Shown piece after piece: positions 27,991 to 35,741 of a DNA stretch of 45,536 nt. The notes beneath the pieces were generated by a model, which was given only the letters and a program-made list of their open reading frames with translations, searched no databases and was not told where the DNA came from. The stretch is taken from the NCBI GenBank assembly GCA_947630455.1, contig CANRHP010000009.1, forward strand, positions 1 through 45,536. Reading direction: 5' to 3'. A program made the translations under genes and the position numbers. Position 1 is the stretch's first letter. Each line of letters begins with the position of its first letter. The stretch comes from an uncultured Clostridia bacterium (GTDB lineage Bacteria; Bacillota; Clostridia; Christensenellales; CAG-314).

Positions 27991-30900
27991 TCAGCTCTTT
28001 TTTCTTTTTACTATTACTACCACAATAAGTACGGCTACGATTATTATTTCTGCTATGCAGATACAAAGCAATGCAACTTCCAAGCCGTTGCCGTCTTGTT
28101 CTTGAGAAGCAAGGACTGCTTTTGCCTCGTCAACCTTGGCACGTGCGGCTGTCAATGCGCTTGTTGCAGATTGTTCATCTGCTGCGCTCTCGATCGCTGC
28201 AAGTCCATCCGTTACGGATTTGTCGCTCAGAGACACACCGTTGCTTGCCGCATACAGTTTAAGCTCGTTTGCAGCCTGCTCCTTCGTTTCTTTGAGCACT
28301 TGTGCAGCGTCATTTGCCGCCTTGACCTCGTTTACCTTGGACTGAGCATCTTTCGATGCTTTTTCGACAGATTCCTCGTTTTCTGCGCTCTCAATTGCCG
28401 CAAGTCCGTCCATCACGGATTTGTCCTGCAATGAAAGTCCCAAGCTTGCAGCATATAGCATCAAGTCGTTTTCAGCAGCTTTCTTGGCTTCCGCAAGCTT
28501 GCGTGCAGCTTCTTCCTGTGCCTGCTTGTCCGCAGCCTCTTTGTCCAAAGCCGCTTTTGCGTCGTCTATACTCTTCTTCGCTGCCTGCAGTGCGGATGCA
28601 ATACCGCTTCCGTCAAGAGCCGTCTCGATAGCGTCGAGACCATCGGTTACGATTTCATCCCGCAGCGAAAGTCCCAGACCGGCAGCGTATACCATCAATT
28701 CGGTTTGAGCTTCTTTTCTTGCCTCCGCAAGTCTACGAGCTGCTTCGTTCTGTTCCTGTTGATCGCCGACTTCTTTGTCCAAAGCCGCTTTTACGTCGTC
28801 TACGTTCTCCTTTGCTGCCTGCAGCGCGGAAGTTATACCACTTTCGTCAGCAGCCTCGATAGCCACGATTCCGTCGGTCACAGACTTGTCTTGAAGAGAT
28901 ACGCCGAGACTTGCAGCGTACAACATAAGTTCGTTCTCAGCCGTTTTTCTTGCTTCCGCAAGCTTGCGTGCAGCTTCTTCCTGAGCCTGTTTGTCTGCCG
29001 CTTCTTTATCCAAAGCCGCTTTTGCGTCATCTATATTCTCCTTTGCTGACTGCAGTGCGGAAGTTATACCGCTTTCGTCAAGAGCATCCGCGATTGCGTC
29101 CAATCCATTGGTAACGGTTTCGTCCTGCATGGACAAGCCCTTGCTTGCCGCATAAAGCAGCAGGTCATTTTCGGCAGCGGTCTTTGCCGCGGCAAGCTCT
29201 TCGTCCTGAGTGAATACGGAGTTCATTGCTCTGCGCGCGTTGTTCACTATTCTACGCACCTGCTGCATAGTAAGCTCATCGGTAACCTCAAGCGCCTGCG
29301 CAGCGTCGGCATAGATAGCGTCGAATTGCGCCGAAGCGTCGGCGGAATAGGGATAGTCGTTGAGCAGCTGTTCTTTTTCATTGCCGAGCTCGGCAAGCAA
29401 GCTTTCAACATACGCAGAGATCTCGCATACCACGAAGCCCTCTTCATCTTTCATATAGCAGTAACCCTCTGCGATCATGCTTTCGTCAAATTCCGTCTTG
29501 GATTTGCCAGCAATGATCTTGTCGCCTTTGACAAGGGCGCTCTTATTCTTTGTTACTTCGTTTCCGTCTGCATCGCGTACGATCACTTTTTCCTCATCGA
29601 GCACATACGAATCGGACGGGAGCTTCTCTTCTCCGAAGTTCACGGAGAAGCCGCCGCCCGCAGTTTCTTCTTCGGTTGTGGGAACAGTGACTTCGGGAGC
29701 CAGTTCGTGGCTGCCATAGAGAGGATTTTTCTTCACCGCGGCGGTGCCTTTCGCCGTAATATCGGTTCCTGCGCCTTTGATCTCGATCTTTTTATCTGCG
29801 GTACCGGCATCAGCCCCGCCGACTAAATAACTATCAGGAGCTTCGATATCACAGCTTTCAAGCGTTAGGGCTTGACCGACCAATTGTCCCATAACCGAGC
29901 CGACATAACTGCCGCCGCAGCGATCCACAAAGTTTTTGACGGAGCCGTTCTTCACCGTTACAGAAGCCTCGGTGAAGCCGACAATACCGCCCATCTTCCA
30001 ATTGCCGTCCAGCGTGATTCCGTCTATCTCTATACCATCGATAAACAAATTGCTCCAAGTCTGACCTATAAAGCCACCGCCCATGATGTTCCCGGAATCC
30101 TGTGCCTGTGCAATAGTGACGTTGTGTATCTTGATATTTTTTGCAGCGGCTTCAAGGGAGTTGTGTCCTTGGTTGCCCTGTGCGATAACGCCGCCTACAA
30201 ACACCCAGCCTTTTTCAGTATTGTATTCATCAAAGTACCCGACTCCGCTGCCTCCTTCAAACTTGGAGTTCATTACGGTGACATTGCTGATCCTTGCCTC
30301 GCTGTTCGTTCCACCGAACAAGCCCGCGTTGATCTCAATTACATGGATGCCCTGGATGATGTAGTTTTCGCCATCTCCCTTTGCTCCGTCGAAAGTACCC
30401 CTGAATCTATTTGTTTGGTTGCCGACGGGGAAGAAGTCCTCTTCGTTATTCTGCACACCATAGGCAGCAAGGGCAATGGACGCATTGTCGGGTCTGTACC
30501 CAAAGTCGAGATCGGCTTTCAGACATACGGTCTTGTTGAGGAAAGAATCAACTCCGCTTGAAACATACAGCGCAAAGGCGTTCCAATCGCTGATCGAGTG
30601 TATCTCAAATGTGCCGCTTTCACTATATTTCTTATACCATTCCTGCGCTTTGAGATTGGGCGCGATCTTCACTTCATACAAAGTTTCATCACTGTATTGC
30701 TGCCCGGCTTCAATATATGCACCGTGCGTCTTCGCAAAATATTTGTCGAGAGATTCGATTTGACTGCCCTTGAAGAAACCGCCCGAAATATCCAGCACGG
30801 CGCCGTCGGAGACATTGAATGAGCCCTCATATATACCGCTCGGAATGGTGAGTTTGCCGCTCTTTACCGCAATGTCGCCCGTGACGGTCACATTCTGCAA

Positions 30901-33318
30901 CGCCGCGTCTCCTTCAATCGTAATGTCGCCTACGAGCTTGCCGTTGCGAAGAGTTGCACCGTTTTTAAGGGTGAGCGAGCCGCCGTCCTCAATCGTGAAT
31001 TGGCAACCAAGATAGAAGTCGAGGTCGAGTGTGACATCTTCGAGTTCCAGCGGCTCATTGAGCGTGGCGTTTCGAAGGAAGCTGACGACGCCGTCTGCGG
31101 CTTTCGCGGCTTCGATCGCGGCTTTGAGCTCTTCATATCTTTCGCCGCCCGCAATGAAGTTGTCTGTCTCTTCGAGGTGCGTGAGCGCAAATTTGCTTGT
31201 CCCCATCGCGATATATGTAAATTCCTCGAACGTGCTGCTGATATCTCCCCAATACGGGTCGGTGCTCTTCAGATCCCATGAAAACACGCTCGTGTGACCC
31301 TCTTCGATGATGAACTCATGAAGATCGAAAACAAACTTACTCGCTTTATTGGGGAAGCTGTAATTGTATGTATCGTTGTCCTTGACCTGGAAATTGATGT
31401 TTTTATAGGTATTGTTCGCTCTGCCGTCATCCCAAGCCACAAGGACGGGCGATGACGTGAGTTCGCCGTGTGCGCTTTCCGTGCCGAAATAGATCTCGGA
31501 GAGGATATTGCCGCCCTTGATCGTGACGACCGCATTCTCGACGGTTTTAAGGTTCTCTCCGATACAGAAGATCGCCTTTGCCTGACTTTGCCCGCCGTTT
31601 CCACCCTCAATGTCGGTATAGCTATTTTCATTGGGGAAATAGCCCGTCTGGCGGATAGTTCCGCTTTGAAGCTCGAACGACGCATATTGATTTTTGATAT
31701 TGATACCGCGTGCCCCAGTAGGTTTCGACTGACTCCCCTCAACGCTTGCGATGTTGAAAATCAGTTCACCCTCTTGCTTTGGCGTGCCGTCTTTTATGAT
31801 CAACTTAAACGGTTTGTCGGCGCCGAGATTACTGTCGTTTTCAAGAGCGATGGCAGCTCTGGACCCGTTAATAGAGGGGGCGTCCTTATCGGTGTATGTC
31901 AGCTTTTTACCGTTAAGGTCGATCGTCACGGTACCCGGCTTTGCATAGATATAGGTGTTTGTACCGTCCCACAGGTTCAACTGATCAAACGCAGCATCTT
32001 GTTCTGCCCTTATTGTGCGTGTGCCGTCTAAATTTCTGGTGGCATACAGCCATGCGGCGTTAAAATTCGAAAATTGCTTCTCGATGTCGCCTTCGGCGGT
32101 TACGGTAGCCACGACGGAGTTTTGGTCGATTGTCGTAACGCTGTAATAGTTCCCGATCTCGTCGGCAGGCTGCATCCACATATTCGGAGCGCAATAGATC
32201 GTGTAGTCCGTTTCCCATGTGCCGCCCGAAATAGTAACCTTATTTTCAAAGGTCTCGTCTATTTCATAAGAAGTAAGGGAGCCATAGTATGCGGGTATAT
32301 TGCATGTGACTTTGCTTCCGAGCGTGATGTTCTCGAGCCGCCCATTCGACCCGATAAACTTACCGCCCTCAATGACCACTTCGCAACCGCGATAAGGCTT
32401 GTAAGCCTCCAAGTACTTACCAAGTTTATCTTGTATATCATTCAGTAATTTCTCTTTTGTGCTGTCATTGAAAAAATCCCCGTCCTTGTTCACATCGGTC
32501 GAACTCCAAGCATAAGTATTCGTAGTAAAGATCGAACGGGTGAGAGAGCCGTCTTCGTCACGCGAAAACGAAATATCCTTAATCGTGAGGTCGGAGTCTA
32601 TCAGCTCGATGAACGCTCCGCTCTGCGGACCGAGAAATGTGCCGCCCTCGATCGTGACCGACGGCTTTTTCGTCCACTTGGTTTGATAGTCCCCATTGTC
32701 CACGTCTGCTTTGCTCGGATTTGTCGAACTCTTGATCATCGCGTAGGTGTTAAAGGAATAACCGTTAGGATTGTGGTAGGTCGGATTCGTCATGTTCACG
32801 TTCGTGATCAACGTGCCGTAGTTGTAGACGAGAACATCGCCCGGTTCATCATTTGTGATCAAGCCCGACTTGTCGGGAGATGTATCGATTAGTTCGAGTT
32901 TGCCGTCGATGTTGGAAACCGAAATGACCCACCATCCGCCTTCACGCTTCATTGTGTGACCGTTGAGGTCGATCACGAGGTTTCTCGCCCCTGTGCGAAG
33001 ACCGTATCGTTCGTCATTGGATTCCGTGTTTCCGTCGCCGTCTTTGTTACCGACCACAACATAGTCGTCCGCCGTGCCGATCACGATATCCGCCCCGAGA
33101 CGTATCTTATAGGGCGTATCCTGCCTCACATCAACCTTGAGAACTGCCTCTTTAAGCTCTTTCGCGCTGTTCACGGTGATGTCGGGCACGAACGTTTCTT
33201 CAGCATGACCTTGCTGAACGGAGCCGCATAAGCTGATGACTGCAATAGCAATCAACAAAAGCGCCAGCAACACAATAAAAACCGTTTGCAAAGTCAGTCT
33301 CAATTTTGTTTTGCTCAT
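27991..33318 (-). CDS. 1775-aa surface protein: signal, beta-helix/GLUG-like ectodomain, five C-terminal alpha-helical repeats, C-terminal TM with KRKKS tail
   Basis: N-terminal hydrophobic signal (TVFIVLLALLLIAIAVISLCG); repetitive beta-strand segments; repeats such as LAEARKTAENELMLYAASLGVSLQDKSVTDG; C-terminal VALLCICIAEIIIVAVLIVVVIVKRKKS; SD AAAGGAGG before ATG. Confidence 0.9.
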   Translation of the reverse strand: MSKTKLRLTLQTVFIVLLALLLIAIAVISLCGSVQQGHAEETFVPDITVNSAKELKEAVLKVDVRQDTPYKIRLGADIVIGTADDYVVVGNKDGDGNTESNDERYGLRTGARNLVIDLNGHTMKREGGWWVISVSNIDGKLELIDTSPDKSGLITNDEPGDVLVYNYGTLITNVNMTNPTYHNPNGYSFNTYAMIKSSTNPSKADVDNGDYQTKWTKKPSVTIEGGTFLGPQSGAFIELIDSDLTIKDISFSRDEDGSLTRSIFTTNTYAWSSTDVNKDGDFFNDSTKEKLLNDIQDKLGKYLEAYKPYRGCEVVIEGGKFIGSNGRLENITLGSKVTCNIPAYYGSLTSYEIDETFENKVTISGGTWETDYTIYCAPNMWMQPADEIGNYYSVTTIDQNSVVATVTAEGDIEKQFSNFNAAWLYATRNLDGTRTIRAEQDAAFDQLNLWDGTNTYIYAKPGTVTIDLNGKKLTYTDKDAPSINGSRAAIALENDSNLGADKPFKLIIKDGTPKQEGELIFNIASVEGSQSKPTGARGINIKNQYASFELQSGTIRQTGYFPNENSYTDIEGGNGGQSQAKAIFCIGENLKTVENAVVTIKGGNILSEIYFGTESAHGELTSSPVLVAWDDGRANNTYKNINFQVKDNDTYNYSFPNKASKFVFDLHEFIIEEGHTSVFSWDLKSTDPYWGDISSTFEEFTYIAMGTSKFALTHLEETDNFIAGGERYEELKAAIEAAKAADGVVSFLRNATLNEPLELEDVTLDLDFYLGCQFTIEDGGSLTLKNGATLRNGKLVGDITIEGDAALQNVTVTGDIAVKSGKLTIPSGIYEGSFNVSDGAVLDISGGFFKGSQIESLDKYFAKTHGAYIEAGQQYSDETLYEVKIAPNLKAQEWYKKYSESGTFEIHSISDWNAFALYVSSGVDSFLNKTVCLKADLDFGYRPDNASIALAAYGVQNNEEDFFPVGNQTNRFRGTFDGAKGDGENYIIQGIHVIEINAGLFGGTNSEARISNVTVMNSKFEGGSGVGYFDEYNTEKGWVFVGGVIAQGNQGHNSLEAAAKNIKIHNVTIAQAQDSGNIMGGGFIGQTWSNLFIDGIEIDGITLDGNWKMGGIVGFTEASVTVKNGSVKNFVDRCGGSYVGSVMGQLVGQALTLESCDIEAPDSYLVGGADAGTADKKIEIKGAGTDITAKGTAAVKKNPLYGSHELAPEVTVPTTEEETAGGGFSVNFGEEKLPSDSYVLDEEKVIVRDADGNEVTKNKSALVKGDKIIAGKSKTEFDESMIAEGYCYMKDEEGFVVCEISAYVESLLAELGNEKEQLLNDYPYSADASAQFDAIYADAAQALEVTDELTMQQVRRIVNNARRAMNSVFTQDEELAAAKTAAENDLLLYAASKGLSMQDETVTNGLDAIADALDESGITSALQSAKENIDDAKAALDKEAADKQAQEEAARKLAEARKTAENELMLYAASLGVSLQDKSVTDGIVAIEAADESGITSALQAAKENVDDVKAALDKEVGDQQEQNEAARRLAEARKEAQTELMVYAAGLGLSLRDEIVTDGLDAIETALDGSGIASALQAAKKSIDDAKAALDKEAADKQAQEEAARKLAEAKKAAENDLMLYAASLGLSLQDKSVMDGLAAIESAENEESVEKASKDAQSKVNEVKAANDAAQVLKETKEQAANELKLYAASNGVSLSDKSVTDGLAAIESAADEQSATSALTAARAKVDEAKAVLASQEQDGNGLEVALLCICIAEIIIVAVLIVVVIVKRKKS
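28080..29215 (-). repeat. Five tandem coding repeats, about 231-234 bp each (last copies degenerate)
   Basis: CCGCAAG...GCAGCTTCTTCCTG block recurs at 28491, 28725 (variant) and 28956; protein unit about 77 aa. Confidence 0.85.
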
Positions 33319-33385
33319 ATTGTTTCCTCCTTTTGATTTTATCTACTTTCAAATAGCAAATTTACCTACTTTTGCTATAGTATTT

Positions 33386-33415
33386 ATGATACCCCCCCCC
33401 CGTCGAAAATGTCAA
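33386..33415 (-). promoter_or_regulatory. Promoter of the 1775-aa surface protein with G10 spacer tract
   Basis: Minus strand TTGACA-ttttcgac-GGGGGGGGGG-TATCAT (18-nt spacer), about 68 nt upstream of ATG at 33318. Confidence 0.7.
33392..33401. repeat. Homopolymer C10 (+) / G10 (-)
   Basis: Direct reading: gat a CCCCCCCCCC gtcg. Confidence 0.9.
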
Positions 33416-33540
33416 TAATTTATTAGCGAAATATCCGATTATTTTTTCGTTTTTTTTTAAGTTTATTTACAGAATTTGACGCTCTCTTTCGGCAAAAAAA
33501 GGCATTGAGACAACGGCAAAAGTTTTTTCGCGGCAAGCAA

Positions 33541-33569
33541 TTGCTTATTTGATGCTTTTTTGGTACAAT
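33541..33569 (+). promoter_or_regulatory. Sigma-A-like promoter of tex
   Basis: TTGCTT-N17-TACAAT, then SD TAGGAGA before ATG at 33597. Confidence 0.65.
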
Positions 33570-33596: not shown

Positions 33597-35741
33597 ATGG
33601 ATATAATACAAAAAATAACGGAAGAGCTAAACGTAGCCAAATGGCAGGTGGACGCGGCTGTCAAGCTGATAGATGACGGCAACACCATACCGTTTATATC
33701 TCGCTATCGCAAGGAAGCGACGGGAGAACTAAACGACGAACAGCTGAGAAAGCTGGACGAGAGGCTGACCTATCTGCGGAACCTTGAGGACAAAAAAGAG
33801 CAGGTGATAAAAAGCATCGACGAACAAGGGCTGCTGACAGACGAGCTGCGCGAACAAATTGAAGCGGCAGAGACTCAAGTCGCAGTGGATGACCTCTACC
33901 GCCCCTATCGTCCCAAACGCCGCACACGGGCGACTATCGCCAAGGAAAGGGGACTGGAGCCGCTTGCAAACATAATTTTACTGCAAATGACGGACGTACC
34001 CGTGTCAGAGACAGCTAAGGAGTACATTGACGCGGATAAAGGCGTAAACAGCGCCGACGACGCAATAGCAGGAGCATTGGACATAATAGCGGAGCTTATA
34101 AGCGACAACGCGACCTACCGCTCCGCTATCAGAGATCTGACCCTTCGACTGGGCAAGCTGACTTCCGTTGCCAAAAAGCCGGATGTAAAGACCGTTTACG
34201 ACAATTACTACAACTACGAAGAACCACTGGAAAAAATCCAAGGGCATCGCGTGCTTGCGGTAAACCGCGGCGAGGCGGAGAAGGTGCTGACAGTGAAGGT
34301 GGCGGCTCCGACAGAGCTTATCAACGATTACTTGGTTCGCCATGTTGTAACACGTCAAAATCAATACACCGAGCAGCTTTTGAGAGACGCCGTTTCGGAC
34401 AGCTACAGCCGTTTGATAGAACCCAGTATCGCTACAGAAGTGCGAAATATGCTTACGGAAAAGGCTGAGGACGGCGCAATTGCCGTGTTCGGTAAAAATT
34501 TGGAGCAGCTGCTCATGCAGCCGCCTATTGTAAACAAAGTAGTGCTCGGTTGGGATCCGGCATTCCGTACGGGCTGCAAGCTCGCGGTTGTAGACTCCAC
34601 CGGAAAAGTGCTTGATACCGCAGTAATATATCCGACAGCTCCCACCACACCCGAAAAAATTGCACGAGCAAAGCTGACGCTGACTGCGCTGATAAAAAAA
34701 TACAACGTTTCCCTCATATCCCTCGGCAACGGCACCGCTTCGCGCGAAAGTGAACAGGTGATCGTGGATCTGCTGCATGAAACGGGACTGCCCGTACAGT
34801 ATGTGATTGTCAACGAGGCGGGCGCAAGCGTATACTCCGCAAGCAAATTGGCGACGGAAGAATTTCCGGAATTTGACGTAGGACAACGCAGCGCAGCAAG
34901 TATTGCCCGCCGTTTGCAGGATCCATTGGCGGAATTGGTGAAAATCGATCCGAAATCCATAGGCGTCGGACAATACCAGCATGATATGAACCAAAAGAAG
35001 TTAGGTGAGGCATTGCATGGAGTGGTAGAGGACTGCGTAAACCGCGTAGGAGTGGACCTCAACACTGCAAGCGCACCGCTTTTGCAATATATTTCCGGAG
35101 TAACGGCGTCCATCGCCAAAAATATAGTTGCTTACCGCGAGGCGCACGGACGCTTTACGGATCGCCGACAACTGATGAGCGTGGACAAGCTCGGCGCCAA
35201 AGCGTATCAGCAGTGCGCGGGATTTTTGAGGATAAGCGGAGGAGATAATTTCCTCGACGCTACGAGCGTTCACCCCGAAAGCTATCCTGCGGCATTGAAG
35301 CTTATGCAGATACAACACATATCCCCCGAAAACATCGGCAATCTGCAAGGGCTGAGCAGATCAAAAATCAACTATGAAAAGCTCGCAAAGGAGCTGGATA
35401 TCGGAGAACCGACGCTTAGGGACATAGTTGCCGAATTGGAAAAGCCCGCGCGCGATCCGCGCGACGAAATGCCCAAGCCCATTTTGCGCAGCGACGTACT
35501 GAATTTAAAAGACCTAAAAGAGGGAATGATATTGAAGGGTACCGTGCGCAACGTAATTGATTTCGGTGTGTTTGTAGACATCGGCGTACACCAGGACGGC
35601 TTGGTGCATATTTCACAGATGTCTGCCGGCAAATTCGTCAAGCATCCGTTGGAGGTCGTCAAGGTGGGAGATATCGTCGATGTAAAGGTGCTGTCCGTTG
35701 ACCTTGAAAAAAAGCGTATCGCTCTGACGATGAAAATTTGA
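33597..35741 (+). CDS. tex: Tex family RNA-binding transcriptional accessory protein
   Basis: TIPFISRYRKEATGELNDEQLRKLDERLTYLRNLEDKKEQVIKSI; VLGWDPAFRTGCKLAVVD; VGQYQHDMNQKKLGEAL; C-terminal S1 domain. Confidence 0.97.
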   Translation: MDIIQKITEELNVAKWQVDAAVKLIDDGNTIPFISRYRKEATGELNDEQLRKLDERLTYLRNLEDKKEQVIKSIDEQGLLTDELREQIEAAETQVAVDDLYRPYRPKRRTRATIAKERGLEPLANIILLQMTDVPVSETAKEYIDADKGVNSADDAIAGALDIIAELISDNATYRSAIRDLTLRLGKLTSVAKKPDVKTVYDNYYNYEEPLEKIQGHRVLAVNRGEAEKVLTVKVAAPTELINDYLVRHVVTRQNQYTEQLLRDAVSDSYSRLIEPSIATEVRNMLTEKAEDGAIAVFGKNLEQLLMQPPIVNKVVLGWDPAFRTGCKLAVVDSTGKVLDTAVIYPTAPTTPEKIARAKLTLTALIKKYNVSLISLGNGTASRESEQVIVDLLHETGLPVQYVIVNEAGASVYSASKLATEEFPEFDVGQRSAASIARRLQDPLAELVKIDPKSIGVGQYQHDMNQKKLGEALHGVVEDCVNRVGVDLNTASAPLLQYISGVTASIAKNIVAYREAHGRFTDRRQLMSVDKLGAKAYQQCAGFLRISGGDNFLDATSVHPESYPAALKLMQIQHISPENIGNLQGLSRSKINYEKLAKELDIGEPTLRDIVAELEKPARDPRDEMPKPILRSDVLNLKDLKEGMILKGTVRNVIDFGVFVDIGVHQDGLVHISQMSAGKFVKHPLEVVKVGDIVDVKVLSVDLEKKRIALTMKI

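Follow-up and report, generated by a model that had tools for sequence, protein, structure and literature searches.

The window analysed here is the whole 45,536-nucleotide stretch of contig CANRHP010000009.1 (assembly GCA_947630455.1), from an uncultured Clostridia bacterium of the Christensenellales. Its minus strand carries an open reading frame of 1775 aa (27991..33318, with the ATG at 33318), preceded by a Shine-Dalgarno sequence, AAGGAGG, that is read directly at 33326..33332 (CCTCCTT on the plus strand). The translated protein begins with a signal peptide or membrane segment by our hydrophobicity rule (about residues 1-41; 33196..33318), and its C-terminal part contains five tandem, stalk-like repeats of ~75 aa each (28069..29163), in which the motif LYAAS-G-S recurs at residues 1386, 1464, 1541, 1619 and 1686. 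It closes with a hydrophobic segment and a KRKKS tail, a putative anchor (27994..28086). These features agree with the preliminary description of this DNA, which had called the product a repeat-rich surface protein; a Pfam search at 1e-3 returned no match for it.

The divergent neighbour on the plus strand is tex (33597..35741; Pfam Tex domains), which lies outside the proposed switch and has orthologues in all 25 genomes of the genus, providing an anchor for synteny. A divergent poly-G promoter adjoins tex in three genomes only (the window, G018 and G021), and the gene behind it is different in one of them, so that a conserved syntenic gene at this locus was rejected. In G018, which belongs to another species, the promoter reads TTGACA-TTTGGACT-G10-TATAGT and stands before an MSKTK-type gene, with the remaining spacer changed.

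Upstream of the 1775-aa gene, direct reading of the minus strand gives the -35 hexamer TTGACA (33415-33410), the eight-nucleotide non-G part of the spacer TTTTCGAC (33409-33402), a homopolymer of ten Gs, the proposed slippage tract (33401-33392), and the -10 hexamer TATCAT (33391-33386). The hexamers are separated by 18 nt, ten of which are G, exactly as the preliminary description had read them, and the promoter scan scored the site at 11/12 consensus identity. This TTGACA-TTTTCGAC-G10-TATCAT arrangement is the architecture expected of an SSR promoter spacer. The tract is also longer than chance would provide, as dinucleotide shuffles of the window yielded a mean of 0.12 G9 matches, and it is the only G or C run above 5 in the window, all others being of 5 or fewer.

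Two other regulatory readings of the upstream DNA were examined. An UP element had been suggested from A9 and A6 tracts; the tracts exist, but gaps of 34 and 26 nt, respectively, separate their ends from the -35 hexamer. A canonical UP element abuts the -35, and the intervening DNA, while AT-rich, holds no A/T tract immediately 5' of it; the proposed role was therefore rejected, the tracts being too distant. Phase variation by an invertible promoter was likewise ruled out, as a search for inverted repeats flanking the promoter found none, the only palindrome being one of 9 nt at 33535-33546, outside the promoter.

To place the site in a wider context, we surveyed the genus, the order and beyond. 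The sequence GGGGGGGTATCAT, in which a poly-G run is followed directly by TATCAT, occurred 26 times in 11 of the 25 genus genomes and in 0/126 others, with no match for the reversed control. TTGACA, which formed no part of this query, was found 6-9 nt 5' of the tract, the place that it occupies in the window, in 21 of the 24 genus sites with upstream DNA. Across the order, the pattern TTGACA-poly-G-TATNAT was detected at 139 sites in 68/396 genomes from 25 genera, compared with 0 for the reversed pattern, and 18 of the 23 genomes of the window's own genus in this survey were positive. Outside the order, 2/398 genomes of a phylum sample were positive, against a control of 1 match. A scan of GTDB species genomes recovered at least 118 stretches; among the matches listed, uncultured gut Clostridia and Bacilli were the main sources, and unrelated phyla contributed some. 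One carrier of the design in the order is a cultured species, Pumilibacter muris (CLA-AA-M08; G131), with sites at C2:101970, C6:4683 and C7:132311. Within the genus, Spo0A is present in 24/25 genomes, which is compatible with the earlier label of 'spore-forming' and is not proof of sporulation; one genus genome (G009) is itself a MAG named 'uncultured Clostridia', Lapin-032__bin16.

The same design recurs within the genome from which the window comes, a 1.39-Mb MAG in 53 contigs, of which we examined the stretches around tracts. It contains 27 runs of G9 or longer, about 12 of which occupy promoter-like spacers and mostly stand in front of giant adhesin-like paralogues; tracts in these spacers range from G9 to G12, where in a MAG lengths of G9-G10 may be wrong by one at some sites. 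The pattern TTGACA-N3..11-G8-N0..4-TATNAT identified seven sites in this genome. Further likely promoters lie on contigs C41 (with TTGAAA), C50 (where the contig end cuts the tract) and C18, and on the pair C19/C47 (TTGACT-TTAGC-G11 or G9-TG-TACAAT). From TATCAT onward, a stretch of 24 nt is common to seven of the genome's promoters, with 0 reversed-control matches. About 120 bp upstream of two poly-G promoters, within partly conserved sequence, are C9 runs (G9 on the minus strand; L012:5008-5016 and L023:4986-4994).

Behind six of this genome's poly-G promoters are ORFs of more than 1000 aa, most of whose bodies share about 30-43% identity (BLASTP) and two of which have InlB-like or PKD-like domains; other giant proteins behind poly-G tracts carry InlB-repeat, MBG, PKD and Glug domains. 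The 1775-aa protein has no kin among the genome's other giants at 1e-5 (BLASTP), and its membership of their family by this measure was rejected, although those giants are kin to each other; the promoter design is common to both despite this. Contigs end in or near repeated promoters and genes at several places (C40, C41, C44, C49 and C50 of this genome; G006:C39; G005:C2; G071:C2/C4). Because many contigs end in repeated giant genes, the full repertoire probably exceeds what the assembly shows, and assemblies undercount the family.

Across the survey, poly-G promoters preferentially precede genes for exported products. By the hydrophobicity rule, 66 of the 87 first downstream ORFs with a Shine-Dalgarno sequence are signal- or TM-like, compared with 131/401 background ORFs, and the products are mostly secreted proteins or lipoproteins, so that, together with the InlB-repeat, MBG, PKD and Glug proteins, surface-exposed or secreted products are the main class behind these tracts. 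The exceptions are a few sites before cytoplasmic proteins, including ABC transporter ATPases and a fructose-bisphosphate aldolase-like gene in sister species (L203, L204 and L199). In a sister species, a G9 run lies within an ORF that carries the DPFAGSGTT motif of a DNA methyltransferase (L037; G003:C8:293161-293173), and this enzyme is possibly phase-variable.

The composition of the spacers points to a constraint on their total length. Tracts range from G8 to G18, with G9 (81) and G10 (39) commonest and G8 found only 10 times, although a chance series would run G8 > G9 > G10. Across the order, the spacer parts before and after the tract trade length against each other (correlation -0.59), and the variance of the total spacer is 3.7, compared with 8.7 in permutations, 0/5000 of which were as low; the distance from hexamer to hexamer therefore matters, while the query pattern, which itself limits the lengths, could account for part of this compensation. 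Ordinary promoters in the same DNA, defined as those without a G run of 5 or more, show a sharp peak at 17 nt (26/39). Poly-G promoters instead number 24, 13, 40 and 38 at spacers of 16, 17, 18 and 19 nt, with a dip at 17. This dip is significant in the order set (11/75 among spacers of 16-18; p=0.0002) and outside the genus (p=0.006), and it was repeated among the matches listed in the GTDB genome scan, which is largely separate and shares a few genomes with the order set (p=0.005); with each genus counted once it is weak (6 genera at 17, 10 each at 16 and 18). The distribution suggests that poly-G promoters rest one or two slips away from a 17-nt optimum.

Tract length also differs between natural copies of the same promoter. 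In two species of one genus, an orthologous lipoprotein promoter has G10 and G9, respectively, in an otherwise identical -35, spacer and -10, and two promoter copies in the genome of the window have G11 and G9 between near flanks that are 97-100% identical. Overall, 6 of 17 near-identical promoter pairs were unequal in tract length. This variation, a hallmark of SSR loci, belongs to homologous promoters, as distinct from the window site itself.

Loss of mismatch repair was considered as a cause of the richness in poly-G. MutS_I and MutL_C were detected in 24/25 genus genomes, including that of the window, and we rejected this explanation; slippage in this genome is thus not due to lost mismatch repair, and MutS and MutL may hold single-G slippage modest. 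The only genus genome with neither match (G019; L046; 97% complete) has the longest promoter tract, G18, in a spacer of 25 nt, and its runs of G12 or longer are not otherwise enriched. Since the relatives carry mutS and mutL near each other, an assembly gap is possible in this genome.

Combining these results, we consider it highly probable that the G10 promoter is subject to transcriptional phase variation, in which slipped-strand events change the length of its spacer. The preliminary description had guessed such a switch from the one site, and the guess has gained strong support from the recurrence of the design, the compensation within spacers, the enriched gene class, the length variants and the avoidance of 17 nt, all of them properties of assembled DNA. 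The rate of slippage, its effect on transcription, display at the surface and any benefit to the cell are elements that we infer, and they might combine as follows. The G10 run would serve as the slip-prone spacer of a vegetative promoter of the sigma-70/sigma-A type, and replication slippage would add or remove Gs, moving the -35/-10 distance, 18 nt in the assembly, within about 16 to 19 nt. As RNA polymerase would bind best near 17 nt, each one-base step would raise or lower transcription of the 1775-aa gene, and cells that differ in its expression would coexist in the population. With giant paralogous adhesin-like proteins each behind a tract of its own, cells would further differ in the surface proteins that they display, and throughout the order the same element would drive mainly secreted proteins and lipoproteins.

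A broader proposal, to which we give an even chance, is that the whole order, whose gut Clostridia are mostly uncultured and include the cultured Pumilibacter muris, has a surface repertoire made phase-variable at many loci by poly-G spacers poised off the 17-nt optimum, such that most cells would express each protein weakly and single-base slips would turn individual proteins up.

Among other explanations of the locus, the one that fares best accepts the promoter as real and takes the poly-G as a fixed structural spacer, whose stiff, A-like poly(dG) geometry would set a constant and perhaps low promoter strength and whose length would rarely change and switch nothing. Conservation of the design within the genus and the presence of mismatch repair genes are compatible with such a spacer, and a shifted optimum of 18-19 nt could reflect the helix geometry of a G run; yet near-identical promoters differ in tract length within an overall range of G8 to G18, the spacer distribution has two peaks (16 and 18-19) rather than one shifted peak, and only the pure G run is conserved while the non-G spacer sequence is not. 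We therefore regard a fixed spacer as unlikely.

G runs can also bind regulators or adopt unusual structures, and the tract could act mainly beyond spacing, through a G-quadruplex or a poly-G-binding regulator. To our knowledge, one G run cannot build the usual intramolecular quadruplex, which requires four, and the site has a single run; in addition, the run lies between two hexamers, -35 and -10, whose overall spacing is under constraint. Such an action thus appears very improbable, even though at other promoters, in Treponema, a CRP homologue acts jointly with the length of the poly-G (PMC7864442). That the tract is neutral, a homopolymer fallen by chance into a spacer of a poly-G-rich genome, would fit the fact that more than half of the genome's 27 runs of G9 or longer lie outside recognisable promoter spacers, but it is already largely refuted by the forward and reversed counts in the 396 order genomes. 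The correctly spaced TTGACA at sites chosen without it, the compensation between spacer parts and the secreted-protein genes downstream also speak against it, and we give it hardly any credence.

Phase variation by spacer length, the reading that we prefer, has precedents in other bacteria. In Neisseria meningitidis, homopolymer length in the promoters of porA (poly-G) and opc (poly-C) sets transcription of surface proteins, according to a summary of both (PMC7864442) and, for opc, PMC3960869; the parallel had been drawn beforehand and stands as a known mechanism similar to the one proposed. These cases share with the window site a homopolymer in a surface-protein promoter, but they concern single genes of a Gram-negative pathogen in which switching has been demonstrated, whereas here the design precedes many giant paralogues in an order of gut Clostridia and is known from sequence. 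In Treponema pallidum, tp0126 likewise has a poly-G run between -35 and -10, and its transcription is optimal with a 17-nt spacer (PMC7864442); it is a single OmpW-like spirochaete gene, unlike the giant Gram-positive adhesin-like proteins and lipoproteins described here, at which assembled lengths avoid 17. A case in a Gram-positive is PPA1880 of Cutibacterium acnes, a secreted adhesin-like protein whose poly-G promoter spacer holds G11, G13 and G15 in three strains, giving spacers of 18, 20 and 23 nt that match its secretion (PMC3224659); it differs in being a single gene of an Actinobacterium, and the mechanism there is suggested rather than proven.

Two further systems resemble the proposed switch in part. 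In the gut commensal Bifidobacterium breve UCC2003, slippage at tracts of G10-G11 switches a surface structure, the pilus, and changes in the mouse gut, with ~10-12% additions or omissions (PMC9187656); the tract there is intragenic and switches the reading frame, and G-tracts in promoter spacers are mentioned in that paper, unstudied. In a Firmicute, Streptococcus pyogenes, a one-base indel in an intergenic T-tract changes the transcript level of the repeat-rich surface protein Spy1336/R28; this tract lies between divergent genes and, in the portion of the paper available to us, is not described as a -35/-10 spacer (PMC7098570). Within the collection of papers that was searched, none describes a switch of this sort for Christensenellales or Pumilibacter. 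The mechanism is thus already known, and the apparent novelty lies in the lineage, in how many loci are involved, in a promoter design common to giant paralogues and in the avoidance of 17 nt.

A 2025 review found multi-locus simple-repeat phase variation documented mainly in pathogens and named database bias as one suggested reason (PMC11868660). Here, a commensal clade has the same device before many secreted-protein genes, visible in public assemblies. If the switch operates as proposed, populations of gut Clostridia would contain cells in different surface states, a mixture missed by metagenomics at the species level, and this would bear on interactions with phages and the immune system and on the comparison of strains. 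The off-17 spacer signature could be used to recognise poised promoters by a simple test on genome sequence, and because Pumilibacter muris is in culture, the question can be tested there.

Poly-G runs in other positions were also observed in the genome of the window. A G18 run (L009:4991-5008; G000:C2:78590-78607) lies immediately 5' of a giant ORF, at least 1662 aa long, or inside its start if translation begins at an upstream ATG, and is a candidate translational switch. A G10 run one base 5' of the ATG of another giant ORF, of at least 1526 aa and with MBG domains, has no recognised promoter spacer and is perhaps a translational switch as well (L022:4582-4591; G000:C30). Finally, a G9 run (L013; G000:C7:22866-22874) falls within a 388-aa ORF whose product, judged by eye, resembles a glycosyltransferase of the monogalactosyldiacylglycerol-synthase type, and there it may form a reading-frame switch.
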